From assembly GCA_017941705.1 (NCBI GenBank), contig JAGAVX010000138.1:1-64000 (forward strand): a stretch of 64,000 nt of DNA, read 5' to 3'. Within the stretch, counting starts at the first letter, position 1, and the number at the start of each line of letters is the position of its first letter. A model generated the notes under the pieces. It did no database searches, had not been told where the DNA came from, and saw only the letters and a program-made list of their open reading frames with translations. This stretch comes from Atopobiaceae bacterium (GTDB lineage Bacteria; Actinomycetota; Coriobacteriia; Coriobacteriales; Atopobiaceae). Shown piece by piece: positions 57,067-63,540 of this stretch. Position numbers and translations under genes: made by a program.

Positions 57067-59046
57067 CTATCCGATCTCCCGCTGCTGTTCCGCCTCCCAG
57101 GCGCGCAGCGTCTTCCACACGTCCTCCGCAACCTGCTGCGGGACGCCCTTGACCTGGGCGATATCATCCACGCTCGCGGCACGCAGGCGCTTCATCGACC
57201 CAAAGTGGCGCATGATGGCCTTCCGCCGTTTGGGGCCGACCCCCTCGACCTCATCGAGCACCGACACTCCCTGCGCCTTGGTGCGCAGCTCTCGGTGGAA
57301 GGTGATGGCAAAGCGGTGGCTCTCGTCGCGCACTTGCTTGATGAGGTAGAGCGAGGGCGAACCACTCGGCAGCACCACCGGAGTCTCGTCCCATGGGACG
57401 AAGACCTCCTCGTCCGACTTGGCCAGGCCACACACCGGGATGTCCAACCCCAGCTCGTCAAGCTGCTCGAGCGCCGCCGTGAGCTGTGGCTTGCCACCAT
57501 CGACCACCAGCAGGTCGGGCGCGCGGCTCGCAAAGCGCTCGTCCGACATGTTCTTGGGCCCATAACGGCGGCCCAGCACCTCCTGCATGCTCACGAAGTC
57601 GTTGGCCTCGTCAAGCTCGGTGCGGATCTTGAACTTGCGGTACTGGCCCTTGTCGGGACGCCCGTCGGTGAAGACCACCATCGAGGCGACCGTGAAGGCT
57701 CCGTGCAGCGTCGAGATGTCAAAGCACTCGATGCGCAGTGGCGGGGCATCGAGGGCAAGCGCGCTCTCGAGCTGAAGAAGCGCCTGGTTGGTGCGGTCAT
57801 CCGCATATCCGGTGCGCACCATGTAGCGGTTGAGCGCATGATGGGCGTTGTCGGCCGCCATGCCAAGAAGATGTCGCTTCTCTCCACGCTTGGGCACATG
57901 CACGCGACAGGCGCGCTGGCGCTTCTCCGCGAGCCACTCCCCGAGCAGCTGCGCATCGGGTAGCTCGCAGGGTACGCACACCTCGGCCGGAATGTCCGCC
58001 GTCTCCCCGTAATAGCGCTTGACAAAGCCCTCCACCAGCTCCGTCTCGGTCACGTCGGCGCCTTTGTTGAGGATGAACTCCGACGAGCGGATGACGCGGC
58101 CCTCACGCACCACAAAGACGCAGGCAGCCGAGATGGTCTCCTCGCGATAGAATCCGAGCAGGTCAAGGTTGACGTCGGACGAGAACACGACCTGCTGCCG
58201 GTCATCGAGGCCCTCGAGTACCTCTATGCGATGCTTGATGCGCCCCGCCCGCTCGAACTCGAGCTCGGCCGCCGCCTCGGCCATCTGCTCGCGCAGGTCT
58301 CCGATGATCTGGGACCGGCGCCCCTCAAGGAACTGCTCGACCTGACGCACGTGACGCCCGTAGTCGGCGGTGGTGATAGCGCCACAGCACACGCCCGGGC
58401 CTCTCCCGACGTGGCTGTCAAAGCACGGCCTGCCCCGCTCGGCCAGCACCAGGTTTGCCACAGCCACGTCATCGGGATGGCTGTCGAGGTAGCGTTTGGA
58501 GCGCTTCCACTCGGCACAGGTCCCGATGCAGATGGGTACCGCCTTGCGCAGCATCGCGATCGTCTCGCGCGCCGCCTTCGCATCGGTGTAGGGGCCAAAG
58601 TATCGGGTCCCCTTTCGATGCTTCTCGCGCGTGTACTTGATGGCGGGATAGACGTCGCCCTCGGTAATCGCGATGAACGGGTAGCTCTTGTCGTCCTTGT
58701 AGTCGACGTTGAAGTATGGGTGGTACTGCTCGATGAGGTTTCGCTCGAGCACCAGAGCCTCGTGCTCGCTGCCCACGACCACATAGTCAAAGCTGCGAAC
58801 GACCTGCATCATAAGCGGAATCTTGTCGCGATCGTCCTGCAGAGTCACGTACTGCCGCATGCGAGCGCGAAGGTTCTTGGCCTTGCCCACATAGATGACC
58901 TCGCCCGCAGCATCCTTCCACAGGTAGCAGCCAGGTTCGGTTGGAACACGGGAGACCTGCTCGGCAATGCTCGCCAGGCCCTTGTCCTCAGGACGGGGCG
59001 CCTCGAGGTCGAAGTCGGTGACGTGCGAGGATTCGTTGACGCTCAT
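57067..59046 (-). CDS. uvrC: Excinuclease ABC subunit C
   Basis: The 659-residue nuclease makes the dual incision in nucleotide excision repair. It has the GIY-YIG domain (PGCYLWKDAAGEVIYVGKAKNLR region), a UVR motif (EQMAEAAAELEFERAGRIKHRI region), the RNase H-like catalytic half (CFDISTLHG, VVDGGKPQL) and C-terminal HhH pairs (VEGVGPKRRKAI, IAQVKGVPQQVAE). Its ATG overlaps the end of the upstream PLP-enzyme gene by four bases, so it is coupled to the cell-wall-like genes. Confidence 0.96.
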   Translation of the reverse strand: MSVNESSHVTDFDLEAPRPEDKGLASIAEQVSRVPTEPGCYLWKDAAGEVIYVGKAKNLRARMRQYVTLQDDRDKIPLMMQVVRSFDYVVVGSEHEALVLERNLIEQYHPYFNVDYKDDKSYPFIAITEGDVYPAIKYTREKHRKGTRYFGPYTDAKAARETIAMLRKAVPICIGTCAEWKRSKRYLDSHPDDVAVANLVLAERGRPCFDSHVGRGPGVCCGAITTADYGRHVRQVEQFLEGRRSQIIGDLREQMAEAAAELEFERAGRIKHRIEVLEGLDDRQQVVFSSDVNLDLLGFYREETISAACVFVVREGRVIRSSEFILNKGADVTETELVEGFVKRYYGETADIPAEVCVPCELPDAQLLGEWLAEKRQRACRVHVPKRGEKRHLLGMAADNAHHALNRYMVRTGYADDRTNQALLQLESALALDAPPLRIECFDISTLHGAFTVASMVVFTDGRPDKGQYRKFKIRTELDEANDFVSMQEVLGRRYGPKNMSDERFASRAPDLLVVDGGKPQLTAALEQLDELGLDIPVCGLAKSDEEVFVPWDETPVVLPSGSPSLYLIKQVRDESHRFAITFHRELRTKAQGVSVLDEVEGVGPKRRKAIMRHFGSMKRLRAASVDDIAQVKGVPQQVAEDVWKTLRAWEAEQQREIG

Positions 59047-60221
59047 CGTGAGACCACGGCACCGCGCAGTGCCTTGGCAACGTCGTGCACCCGAGCCGGG
59101 CTCAAGTCGCAGGGCAGCGCCACTGTGCCACGAGTGAGGGCTGCCGTGTTCGGAAGAGTGCCGAGCGATCCATCGTAGCCGTATATGCGCGGATCGCTCA
59201 CACCGGGGTACAGAAGCGGCCTATACCACGGAACGGCATAGAGGCCTGCAGCGGCGATGCCGGCAATCGCATCGTCGGCCTCCTTGTTGGTCGGAAGATT
59301 GACCGCAAGGCGAAGCAGCGGCTGGCCTGAGCCCACCAACGTGCGGGAGACCTTGACCCCATGCACGTCCGCAAGCTCGCGAGCATAGGTGTCGAGGGCC
59401 GCGACACGGAGGTCGAGGCTGGTCGGTAGTGCCTCGAGCGGACCGATGACCTGCTCGCACGACCAGGCATCCATGCGCATGGGCTCATGGGCGACCTCGC
59501 CCGCCATCTCGCCCTGGGCGATGGCCGGCTCAAAGCTCCCGTGTGCCACCATGCGCTCGCGCAGGCCATGTGCCAGCTTTGCCGGCATGTGGTTGAGGGC
59601 GCGAATCTGCGTGCGGTAGCTGCGCATGGCCTTGGCCAGCTTTCCCGCGGGCTCTGGCAGCGAGGAGAGCGCGGCCGCCACGGCATCGTGAAGCTGCGTA
59701 TCCTTCATGCGCGGATTGACCCATACCGCGCCGCCAAAGTAAGTCGGCAGCATCTTCTCGACACCAAAGGAATGGAACGAGAAGTCGGCGTAGGGCATGT
59801 CGTCATCGTCGGTTGCCAAACGCCCCACGCAATGCGCGCAGTCCTCGAGCAGCACCGCACCGCGTTCGTCGGCGGCCTTGCGCAATGCCCTCGATGAGGC
59901 CACGTCGATATAGCCAAACGTGTGCTGGTCGACGATGCCCATGACGGAGGGGTCGGTGGGAAGCGTGCCCGCGTCGAGCGACAGCGTCTTTGCCGACACG
60001 TCACCATAGAGCGGGTGCAACCCGGCTGCGATGATGGGATCTACGGCGGTGCAGCAGGTCAGGAGCTGCGTGACGATGGAACCCTCGCCATGCAGGCGGG
60101 CAAGCTCGCGCAGAACCACCAGCATGCCATGGCGCGCCCTGAAGACCAGAAACCAGTCGCCCGCATCGGTTCCCGTACGGGTAGCAAGCGTCTCCCGCAG
60201 TTCCGTCTGCACGTCAGCCAT
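59043..60221 (-). CDS. PLP-dependent aminotransferase-like protein (DegT/DnrJ/EryC1 type)
   Basis: The 392-residue protein has the fold type I PLP layout of the DegT group. D127 in LLEDCAHCVG contacts the cofactor, and K156 in SFGVEKMLPTYFGG is the likely Schiff-base lysine. Sequence around these sites is looser than in sugar aminotransferases, so the substrate may not be a nucleotide sugar. It lies six bases after the ATP-grasp ligase gene and overlaps uvrC. By context it may serve amino-acid or cell-wall precursor metabolism; this is inference. Confidence 0.75.
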   Translation of the reverse strand: MADVQTELRETLATRTGTDAGDWFLVFRARHGMLVVLRELARLHGEGSIVTQLLTCCTAVDPIIAAGLHPLYGDVSAKTLSLDAGTLPTDPSVMGIVDQHTFGYIDVASSRALRKAADERGAVLLEDCAHCVGRLATDDDDMPYADFSFHSFGVEKMLPTYFGGAVWVNPRMKDTQLHDAVAAALSSLPEPAGKLAKAMRSYRTQIRALNHMPAKLAHGLRERMVAHGSFEPAIAQGEMAGEVAHEPMRMDAWSCEQVIGPLEALPTSLDLRVAALDTYARELADVHGVKVSRTLVGSGQPLLRLAVNLPTNKEADDAIAGIAAAGLYAVPWYRPLLYPGVSDPRIYGYDGSLGTLPNTAALTRGTVALPCDLSPARVHDVAKALRGAVVSR

Positions 60222-60227
60222 CGTTGC

Positions 60228-61442
60228 CTACTCCTCCAGGTCGCGCTTGCCGAAGTACTTCTTGAAGTCGACGATATAGTGCACCCACAGCTTGGACATG
60301 TTCCAGAGGCGACGCGGGTCATTGTCGTGCGCGCCAAACAGCGTCGTGCCCACGCGCCCCTCGCGCATCAGGCGCATGGCCCAGTCCTTGTCGGGTCCCT
60401 CGGCCGCATAGCGACGGACGATGGTCTTGGGGACGCCGACCCACAGAACCTCCTCACTGGCATGGACGGGCGCCTCGCGGCGACCCTCGATGACGTCTTC
60501 GACCGCACAGCGTGCGAGGTTGTGGCCCGAGAGGGTCGTGAAGAAGCTGCTCCGCCCCTGGCGCGGGTTGAAGTCGAGCAGCTTGAAGATCCCATCGCGC
60601 TCGTCGTACTTCATGTCGATGTTGAAGTAGCCAAAGTAGCTCACGTGCTCGAGCAGGCGCTCGACCGTCTCGTAGACCTGCTCGTCGCCGTAGCTCACGA
60701 TGGCCGCATAGTTGCCGATGCGCATGGGGGCGCAGTCCTCGAGGATCGGGTGGCCCAACGACAGCAGGGACACCGTGCCGTCGGAGCGCACGTAGCCATT
60801 GAGCACGCGCATGTTCTCGTCCCCACCGGGAATGAAGTCCTGGATGACCAGCCCCTCGTCATAGCCGGAGGCATAGATGCGGCGGAGGGTCTCTGCCAAC
60901 ATGTCGCGGTCCTCGAGGATGAAGGCCTTCTTCTGGCCCTCGAAGGGATGCTCGCGATACAGTGCGGCATTGGTTGGCTTCACCGCGACGGGGAACGGGA
61001 AGGGCAAGTCGGGCACGTCGGCGCTGTCAACACGCACCGTCTTGGGATACGGAACCCCCTCTCGCTCGCAGAGCGCATAGAAGGAGGCCTTGTTCTCGAG
61101 CTCGGTGAGGACGCCCGGGCCCGAGCAGATGGGCATGTAGCGCTCATCGAGCTCGCTCTTGTGCTCGGACAGAAGCACCGAGTAGTCGTCGCCACAGGGA
61201 ATGATCAGCGGCACGGCGTCCCCAAAGGTCGCAGCGTCACGATTGAGCACCGCCACGAAGGTCTCTGCGTTGGCAAACCCGGGGTCGCAGCGCTGCTCGA
61301 TGAACTTGGAATGCGCCGTCGGCGTGAGGGGGAAGGTGCCGTACGCGACGCTCTTGACCTTGTAGGCCTCCCAAAACGCACGCGCCATGCCGTAGGCGCC
61401 GATCTCGGTCCCCAGAAGCACAGGGACAAACTTCCTTGCCAT
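60228..61442 (-). CDS. ATP-grasp carboxylate-amine ligase, D-aspartate-ligase-like
   Basis: The 404-residue protein has the ATP-grasp features KPTNAALYR, IQDFIPGGDENMRVLNGYV and LLDFNPRQGRSSFF. Its start, FVPVLLGTEIGAYGMARAF, and the segment YFGYFNIDMKYDERDGIFKL closely resemble, as I recall them, the Enterococcus faecium D-aspartate ligase Aslfm and its relatives. That enzyme adds D-Asp to the position-3 diamino acid of peptidoglycan precursors. An Asp/Glu racemase gene 1.2 kb away, divergent, could supply D-Asp. The ATG has GAGGAG seven bases upstream. The exact substrate is not proved. Confidence 0.82.
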   Translation of the reverse strand: MARKFVPVLLGTEIGAYGMARAFWEAYKVKSVAYGTFPLTPTAHSKFIEQRCDPGFANAETFVAVLNRDAATFGDAVPLIIPCGDDYSVLLSEHKSELDERYMPICSGPGVLTELENKASFYALCEREGVPYPKTVRVDSADVPDLPFPFPVAVKPTNAALYREHPFEGQKKAFILEDRDMLAETLRRIYASGYDEGLVIQDFIPGGDENMRVLNGYVRSDGTVSLLSLGHPILEDCAPMRIGNYAAIVSYGDEQVYETVERLLEHVSYFGYFNIDMKYDERDGIFKLLDFNPRQGRSSFFTTLSGHNLARCAVEDVIEGRREAPVHASEEVLWVGVPKTIVRRYAAEGPDKDWAMRLMREGRVGTTLFGAHDNDPRRLWNMSKLWVHYIVDFKKYFGKRDLEE

Positions 61443-61456
61443 GTGTCTCTCCTCGC

Positions 61457-62476
61457 CTACTCTTGCGTGCCGCGATTGCGGACCGCGCTCAGTACTTGCT
61501 TCCCCATGCAGAGCGTCTTGTAGAAGGCGCCCTTCACCGGGACATCGCGGTCGGGCGCAACGTGCGTCACCTCGGCGGCGAACTTGGTCTTGAAGGTGTT
61601 GAGGCTGTTGAGCGCGGGAGAGAAGTCCGAGCCGATGCCCATGAGGTCGAACACCTCACAGCCCAGGCGACCAAGCTCGCAGCACGCAAAGTAGAAGAGC
61701 TTGTCGGTCACGTTGCCACGGCGCGCCTCGGCGCTCGACGCGGCATAGTAGTAGGTCCCCAGAGTGCCCGACTTGGTGCAGATCGACCACGTCGCAAGCC
61801 GTCCGTCCTCCAGGCGCCCCGCAAACACGCGACAGTGCTCGGGACCAAGGATGCGCACCATGTCCTCGTAGTCGCTCTTGGGCGCGGGAGTGAAGCCGTC
61901 GCGCTCGGCGGTCTCGCGCATGATGGCGTAGTACTCGTCAAATGACGAGAGTGCCCGCTCGGTCTCATCCGCGCAGGTGATAGGAGCCTCGCGCAGTGCC
62001 TTGCGCACATCTCGACGACCACGGGCCTTCATGTTTGCCAGAATCGCCTCGTCCCCACCGGTGACATCGACGTGCACCGTCGTGTCATAGGGAATGGACG
62101 AGAGCGTGGGATGGGTCAGCTCCAGCTCGTGATCGACGGCGAGACGCATGAACGCGACCTTGCGGTCGTGTGCGCGCACGTAGGCGACAAGCGCCTTCAT
62201 GGCCTCGAGCTCCTCTTCGGCCGATGGGGCCTCGAGCCACATCGGACCGTGATGCGCACGCAGGTAGTGGTATCCATGGGTCTCGTAGTCGACAAGGCTC
62301 ACATACGCCACGTCAACGCCTGCCCGCGCAAAGGCGAGGCATCCCCAGAAGGTGCGGCCTTCGACGGTCTGTTGGTAGTCAGCCCATGCCATCGTCTGCT
62401 CGATGGGAACGAGGATGTCAGCCTCCTCGACAAGACGGGAAAACTCGTCCTTGCTCAGTTCTCTGATTTCGGTCAC
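61457..62476 (-). CDS. FemAB-like peptidoglycan cross-bridge amino acid transferase
   Basis: The 339-residue protein has the FemX/FemAB double-GNAT layout: an N-terminal VPIEQTMAWADYQ segment, a middle NMKARGRRDVRKA motif typical of Fem transferases, then AGRLEDGRLATW, GTYYYAASS and a late FDLMGIGSDF. Fem proteins add amino acids from aminoacyl-tRNA to lipid II. I chose the GTG at 62476, which has GAGGAG six bases upstream; an ATG eight codons earlier has no site. It is the first gene of the unit FemAB, ATP-grasp, PLP enzyme, uvrC, phosphatase. Confidence 0.85.
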   Translation of the reverse strand: MTEIRELSKDEFSRLVEEADILVPIEQTMAWADYQQTVEGRTFWGCLAFARAGVDVAYVSLVDYETHGYHYLRAHHGPMWLEAPSAEEELEAMKALVAYVRAHDRKVAFMRLAVDHELELTHPTLSSIPYDTTVHVDVTGGDEAILANMKARGRRDVRKALREAPITCADETERALSSFDEYYAIMRETAERDGFTPAPKSDYEDMVRILGPEHCRVFAGRLEDGRLATWSICTKSGTLGTYYYAASSAEARRGNVTDKLFYFACCELGRLGCEVFDLMGIGSDFSPALNSLNTFKTKFAAEVTHVAPDRDVPVKGAFYKTLCMGKQVLSAVRNRGTQE

Positions 62477-62648
62477 GCGATACTCCTCACAGACGCCCAT
62501 TGGGCGGTCACGTCATATCTGAACCATTGTAGATACGCCTTCGCCAACGCGGTCCCATTTGCATGGTAGAAACAGAACTCATGTCCTCCACATGGTGCGG
62601 TTAGAATAGCCTATGCGACATTTACGGCTCTACGGACGGAATTGGACG

Positions 62649-63374
62649 ATGAACAAACCCATTCTTGGCATCATAGGCGGGGTTGGCCCCCTGGCAACTG
62701 CCTGCTTCATGGAGGCGCTCATACGCAAGACCCCTGCCAGGCGCGACCAGGAGCATATGCCCATGATCGTCTTCAACGATCCGCAGATCCCGGACCGTAC
62801 GGCTCACATCCTCGACCACAGCAAGCCAAACCCCCAGCCCGAGATGGAAAACGTCGCACGCTGGCTCGAGCGCGCCGGAGCCGACTACATCGCCATCGCC
62901 TGCAACACCGCCCACTACTATTACGAGGGCATCGTCAACGCAGTGGATATCCCCGTCGTCAACATCATGGAGGAGACCGCCAAGCGTATCGCCGGCGAGG
63001 CCGGCGAGGGGAGCACCGTGGGTCTGCTCGCAACCGAGGGAACGGTGTCGTCCGGCGTCTTCCAGGACTACCTTGGTCGCTACGGACTCAAGACCGTCGA
63101 GCCGCTCGCGGAGCAGCAGCGTGAGGTCACGTCGCTCATCTACGACGGTGTGAAGGCGGGGGCCACCTATGACCCCCGTCAGCTCCTCGATCTTGGTGAG
63201 CAGCTGCGTGCGCGCGGATGCGACACCGTCATCGTTGGATGCACGGAGCTCTCCGTCATCTATCAGGCCCTTGCAGAGAAGCCCGCGTGGTTCTACGACT
63301 CGCTCGACGTCCTCGCCGACCGCTGCGTGCAGATCTATCTCGCATCCCGCCAGGCGGGATCGCTTGTGGTATAG
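62649..63374 (+). CDS. Aspartate/glutamate racemase family protein
   Basis: The 241-residue protein has the racemase start ILGIIGGVGPLAT and the two catalytic cysteines C85 in IACNTAHYY and C198 in IVGCTELSV. The GGVGPLAT motif and the length fit the aspartate racemase (RacD/YgeA) group better than glutamate racemase MurI. It is divergent from the FemAB-like gene with 172 bp between, and probably provides D-aspartate. The ATG at 62649 has a modest ribosome site (GGA-rich). Confidence 0.85.
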   Translation: MNKPILGIIGGVGPLATACFMEALIRKTPARRDQEHMPMIVFNDPQIPDRTAHILDHSKPNPQPEMENVARWLERAGADYIAIACNTAHYYYEGIVNAVDIPVVNIMEETAKRIAGEAGEGSTVGLLATEGTVSSGVFQDYLGRYGLKTVEPLAEQQREVTSLIYDGVKAGATYDPRQLLDLGEQLRARGCDTVIVGCTELSVIYQALAEKPAWFYDSLDVLADRCVQIYLASRQAGSLVV

Positions 63375-63416
63375 CAAGTCGAGCATAAGCCCGAGCCCAT
63401 CGTCACGACGCACAGT

Positions 63417-63519
63417 GGCACGCATGCTCCCCGGGAGCTGCTGTGCCATCGTGGGATTGAGACGTGCGCTCGACCATATTGCAGCGATGGCACAGTAGCT
63501 CCCGGGGAGCATGTGTGCC
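63417..63519. repeat. Very long inverted repeat (35-bp arms)
   Basis: Arms 63417-63451 and 63485-63519 pair over 35 positions with only two G/T wobble positions, around a 33-base spacer. The unit shares 25 of 33 positions, without gaps, with the repeat starting at 27222 (GGCAC..., centre CCCCGGGA, ...CTGTGCCA). It lies between the convergent racemase and NlpC/P60 genes. Confidence 0.85.
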
Positions 63520-63540
63520 ATCCATGGGCGACTCTCGCCC

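Follow-up and report, generated by a model that had tools for sequence, protein, structure and literature searches.

The stretch of DNA considered here, a window of 64,000 nucleotides (positions 1 to 64,000 of contig JAGAVX010000138.1, assembly GCA_017941705.1), comes from a metagenome assembly of an Olsenella-like gut bacterium of the family Atopobiaceae. Toward its end, beside uvrC, lie genes for a racemase, a ligase of the D-aspartate type, a FemAB-like transferase, and a pyridoxal phosphate (PLP) enzyme, which probably make up a peptidoglycan cross-bridge cassette whose members would all act in one branch of cell wall synthesis. Judged by its sequence, the locus most likely puts D-aspartate and a further component into the cross-bridges. 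This explanation rests on the observed gene content, ligase clade, co-occurrence, in-frame fusions, and intact catalytic residues. The novelty lies in a cassette for cross-bridges that is modular, fused, and exchangeable and contains a PLP module of unexplained role, rather than in the overlap of that module with uvrC. The genes, from right to left, are as follows.

62613-63374, plus strand: Asp/Glu-type amino acid racemase (TIGR00035, 1jfl match, Cys97 and Cys210)
61457-62500, minus strand: FemAB/GNAT-type aminoacyltransferase, 339-347 amino acids (aa) (PF02388, PF13480, F303-K304, 9wqy match)
60228-61442, minus strand: ATP-grasp ligase, predicted D-aspartate ligase (Asl) type, 404 aa (Lactobacillaceae identity, tree position)
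59043-60221, minus strand: DegT/DnrJ-like fold-type I PLP enzyme, new subfamily, 392 aa (PF01041, invariant catalytic residues, fold matches)
57067-59046, minus strand: uvrC (excinuclease subunit C), a conserved positional anchor, probably outside the pathway, that adjoins the ligase in most relatives

The minus-strand genes are transcribed in the order FemAB-like protein, ligase, PLP enzyme, and uvrC, with gaps of 14 bp between the first two and 6 bp between ligase and PLP enzyme, and with a four-base overlap (ATGA, 59043-59046) between PLP enzyme and uvrC. The FemAB-like gene probably starts at GTG 62476, a choice backed by the start positions of homologues, and the racemase at ATG 62649, which leaves a divergent gap of 172 bp. 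The three-gene unit with a divergent racemase at that distance, proposed in an earlier note on this DNA, is borne out by the gene coordinates and by its recurrence in relatives; since the same arrangement recurs at the same site, it does not appear to be a product of chance. Olsenella phocaeensis (L037) and Kribbibacterium absianum (L039), both in culture, are among the bacteria that have all four genes.

Fusion and co-occurrence of the cassette genes

The strongest evidence that the three enzymes of the minus-strand unit have one pathway in common comes from in-frame fusions. The PLP enzyme is fused to the ligase in five genomes (L080, L082, L084, and L087, at 828-843 aa, and L148), the FemAB-like protein is fused to the ligase in 11 (L094-L100, at 750-767 aa, and L147, L152, L153, and L154), and all three form a single PLP-ligase-FemAB protein of 1235 aa in L078. 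Those of the fused proteins that were tested contain the expected Pfam domains, the PLP catalytic motifs are retained, and the appearance of fusions in independent genomes speaks against assembly error. The suggestion that the FemAB and PLP additions are new to this genome was too narrow, as they are widespread in the family and in one neighboring family, often fused to the ligase.

Co-occurrence was examined in 111 genomes of Atopobiaceae. Fourteen carry the ligase class of the window, and none of the 14 lacks the racemase, the PLP enzyme, or the FemAB-like protein (Fisher p of 2e-11, 7e-8, and 5e-5, respectively), the last being unlinked to the ligase in some of them (G056 and G091). A racemase of this type is absent from most family genomes with other ligase classes. 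We repeated the test with kinship taken into account on a uvrC tree, on which the ligase class changes at least seven times: racemase and PLP enzyme follow it in about five of seven independent pairs and are never opposed to it (sign test, about 0.03 and about 0.06), and the FemAB-like protein follows it in about four of seven. A direct tie between PLP enzyme and FemAB-like protein was considered and rejected; in the raw counts, 30 genomes have both, 9 the PLP enzyme only, 28 the FemAB-like protein only, and 44 neither (p of 1e-4), an association that vanishes on the tree (p of 0.73). In seven of nine loci of the sister family (L138-L144), the genes for PLP enzyme, FemAB-like protein, and ligase form a cluster next to uvrC.

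Ligase and racemase

The assignment of the ATP-grasp protein to the D-aspartate ligase type is well supported by sequence comparison. It passes no Pfam cutoff (the best is ATP-grasp, at 26.9 bits versus the 29.1 needed), and it aligns end to end with ligases found near D-Asp genes. Its best matches outside its own class are full-length Lactobacillaceae proteins of 38-40% identity, with which it shares Lys155, Q201-x3-P205-G-x-D208, N274/D276/K278, and N292/R294. The L. curvatus relative is encoded behind aspS and an amino acid racemase gene and the L. crispatus relative behind asnB, contexts that match those described for D-Asp ligase and D-Asp amidation, in which racD is paired with aslA and an asparagine synthase amidates the bridge (PMC4155827). 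The class was assigned by way of these homologues in D-Asp gene contexts. A putative E. faecium Aslfm sequence matches the L. crispatus and L. curvatus ligases at 60%, the window ligase at 44%, and most other classes at 31-34%, and serves as a pointer rather than a test.

The clade of the window ligase, 17 rows in a tree of 71 ligases, has the Lactobacillaceae proteins L090-L092 as its sister group, and the joint group of 20 rows has a Shimodaira-Hasegawa-like approximate likelihood ratio (SH-aLRT) support of 99. The window clade is separate from most ligases that other Atopobiaceae have at this uvrC site, which fall into a partnerless group, a clade associated with PLP (18 rows, support 100), and one associated with or fused to FemAB (15 rows, support 100). 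A PDB search with the ligase gave no match, and its structure model was too poor for use (pLDDT 51). In L101 and L161, two different ATP-grasp ligases of this kind lie within a few kb of each other, one of them beside a FemAB-like gene.

The racemase is readily placed in the Asp/Glu family (Pfam Asp_Glu_race, 150.2 bits, cutoff 31), with catalytic Cys97 and Cys210 conserved. It exceeds the cutoffs of both the aspartate racemase model TIGR00035 (226.7 bits, cutoff 93.1) and the cysteate racemase model CuyB (234.9 bits, cutoff 190), so that automatic annotation could misname it. The slightly higher CuyB score, together with the lack of such a racemase in most family genomes with other ligase classes, would fit a ligase that uses D-cysteate, D-Glu, or D-Asn in place of D-Asp, the substrate being supplied by a cysteate racemase or similar enzyme. 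We regard this as very unlikely, since the racemase beside the L. curvatus ligase matches the same two models (238.7 bits for asp_race and 185 for CuyB), aspartate racemases in the PDB match at 1e-55 (1jfl, 1.6e-55), and D-Asp walls have been published in the family.

The stem peptide is consistent with a D-Asp bridge as well. MurE enzymes that add diaminopimelate (DAP) carry the motif DNPR, in place of which MurE of the window genome has TEEDPA; in every relative sampled, the motif is EDPA, DDPG, DDPW, or close to one of these. The missing DAP signature fits walls with L-lysine (L-Lys) or L-ornithine (L-Orn), and the published walls of the family are L-Orn-D-Asp in Olsenella uli (PMC3035265) and L-Lys-D-Asp in Atopobium parvulum (PMC3035223); for Collinsella, the literature search found no exact bridge structure. 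The proposed pairing of D-Asp ligase and racemase is accordingly supported by the ligase clade, the racemase in all 14 genomes, the D-Asp walls, and the non-DAP MurE. The three MurE motif types alternate between species within single genera (L115, L162-L242), which suggests that either the third stem residue or MurE itself has been exchanged.

PLP enzyme and FemAB-like protein

The PLP enzyme, said in the earlier note to have no obvious place in the known pathway, is indeed the unexplained part of the cassette. It matches DegT (PF01041, 56.9 bits, cutoff 19.8), and all 29 homologues keep Lys156, Asp127, and His130; these features point to an active aminotransferase-type protein that would act in the same branch as the ligase. 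Its predicted structure (pLDDT 85) has fold-type I (fold match E of 3e-16). No named NCBIfam equivalog is reached, the best being DesI at 35.2 versus 650 bits. The usual phosphate motif of DegT-type enzymes is SGT, in place of which this subfamily seems to have KAR[HY]GM. The protein was found in only two families of its class in our sample, and a search of plasmids gave no relative.

The FemAB-like protein matches PF02388 (32.9 bits, cutoff 24) and PF13480 (Acetyltransf_6), and its C-terminal F303-K304 pair is conserved. It falls far below the equivalog level of FemX, the Lys N6-alanyltransferase (19.9 versus 500 bits), and matches PDB entry 9wqy, an aminoacyl-tRNA-dependent peptide synthase, at 1.7e-9.

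These affinities allow a simpler account, in which ligase and racemase make an ordinary A4-type D-Asp bridge and the other two proteins share the site while serving another pathway, such as a surface glycan in which the PLP enzyme would make an amino sugar and the FemAB-like protein would aminoacylate it. The PLP model fits sugar aminotransferases best and also resembles amino-cyclitol aminotransferases, its leading PDB matches being TlmJ, AHBA synthase, DesI, and BtrR, with a further match to Fic25, a DegT-type enzyme whose structure contains an amino-acid adduct; G023 and G055 have ligase and racemase without PLP enzyme or FemAB-like protein; and the Acetyltransf_6 and peptide synthase matches, like the published bridges, point the same way. 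This account is unlikely, in our judgment, given that one or both proteins are fused in frame to the ligase in 17 genomes, that the 14-of-14 co-occurrence includes genomes in which the FemAB-like or PLP gene is unlinked, and that in L139, of the sister family, the gene for MurJ (the lipid II flippase, Pfam-confirmed) lies directly upstream of the PLP gene.

The PLP enzyme could instead supply the diamino acid of stem position 3, for example ornithine, which would make it a stem enzyme rather than a bridge enzyme. In favor of this, DegT-type enzymes are aminotransferases and the family includes walls of both the L-Orn and the L-Lys type, but the PLP gene accompanies all three MurE motif types and is absent from other genomes of each, with no strict covariation, so that this role seems quite improbable. 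Its presence tracks the ligase class and neither the FemAB-like protein nor the MurE type. Supply of D-Asp by the PLP enzyme was also rejected as unlikely, since every one of the 14 genomes with this ligase class has the racemase; because D-Asp is already provided for, what the PLP enzyme produces or modifies is probably another substrate of the ligase branch.

We also considered whether the PLP enzyme takes part in histidine synthesis, because in two of the 14 genomes, G005 and G007, its gene is situated between hisA and hisF (hisA-PLP-hisF, at L071:4395-5591 and L072:10971-12170), and in G004 and G010 it lies at a similar distance. We judged this to be local relocation, since the his operon neighbors the cassette and has no PLP gene within it in the window genome.

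Returning to a cassette that adds D-Asp and a further component, several of the observations above weigh against it. On the tree, PLP enzyme and FemAB-like protein show no tie, the cysteate racemase model gives the racemase a slightly higher score than the aspartate racemase model does, the closest solved structures of the FemAB-like protein are peptide synthases and not cell-wall FemX, and the published bridges name D-Asp alone, with no visible product of either added enzyme.

Exchange of ligases beside uvrC

Within the genus of the window genome, G003, G011, and G015 have uvrC 85-89% identical to that of the window, but the ligases adjoining them are only 30-33% identical to the window ligase; that of G016 is 89% identical. 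We infer that, among close relatives, ligases have replaced one another at a fixed site, and cross-bridge chemistry probably changes with them. The 4-bp overlap with uvrC is real, but the coupling that had been read into it amounts to shared position and not to a conserved operon: uvrC lies on the opposite strand in at least 10 relatives (L095, L097, L098, L101, L102, L104, L149, L150, L160, and L161), so that co-transcription is not general. Functional coupling to uvrC as a general rule is rejected, and the overlap looks incidental.

Neighboring features

Between the racemase and an NlpC/P60 gene, positions 63415-63521 form a long hairpin with a 38-bp stem (z-score -11). It consists of a palindromic unit of about 33 bp, of which the genome has dozens of copies, often in inverted pairs, and looks like a dispersed repeat of the repetitive extragenic palindromic (REP) type. 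The NlpC/P60 gene (63602-64000) encodes a cell-wall hydrolase with a coiled-coil N terminus, complete at L114:3603-4862, and adjoins the cassette in L071 and L072 too. Past the window, the contig continues with this gene, hisF, hisA, further his genes, murJ, and uvrA, the his operon being the next neighbor of the cassette.

Proposed pathway and comparison with known systems

In the proposed pathway, the D-Asp substrate, the precursor acceptor, and the use of tRNA are taken from knowledge of the enzyme families. The racemase would convert L-Asp to D-Asp, which the ligase would activate with ATP and join to the third stem residue (L-Lys or L-Orn) of the precursor, at its side-chain amine, or, alternatively, to a residue already placed on that side chain. 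The FemAB-like protein would extend the same branch with an L-amino acid or glycine carried by tRNA, and the PLP enzyme most likely would make or alter a substrate handled by the ligase.

The cassette shares with E. faecium Aslfm-racemase and L. lactis racD-aslA the pairing of an Asp racemase with an ATP-grasp ligase of the clade that holds the Lactobacillaceae homologues in D-Asp contexts. It differs in that the racemase is divergent rather than in line, the ligase is only about 40% identical, FemAB-like and DegT-like genes are added, and an asnH-like amidating gene is lacking. The FemAB/GNAT domains and the C-terminal FK motif are those of FemABX proteins (W. viridescens FemX and E. faecalis BppA1/A2), with the difference that the FemX equivalog level is not reached and that relatives fuse FemAB to the ATP-grasp ligase. 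The PLP enzyme has the fold and the conserved catalytic Lys, Asp, and His of the DegT/DnrJ/EryC1/StrS enzymes named above, but it is only 13-21% identical to them, appears to lack the SGT motif, and has relatives fused to the ligase.

A more tentative possibility is that PLP enzyme and ligase are a two-step unit, in some genomes a single polypeptide, that makes and installs a nonstandard or modified residue, with the FemAB-like protein as a third module, at a site where exchange of ligases allows rapid change of the bridge. If so, the fusion of PLP, ATP-grasp, and FemAB parts in one protein would represent a type of cross-bridge synthase for which our literature search found no description.

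The fusions link three enzyme families to one pathway without experiments, and the in-place exchange of ligases is a genomic marker that predicts which close relatives should differ in their walls. Cross-bridge composition influences how endolysins and bacteriocins recognize the wall and how the immune system senses it, and the walls of gut Coriobacteriia are poorly described.

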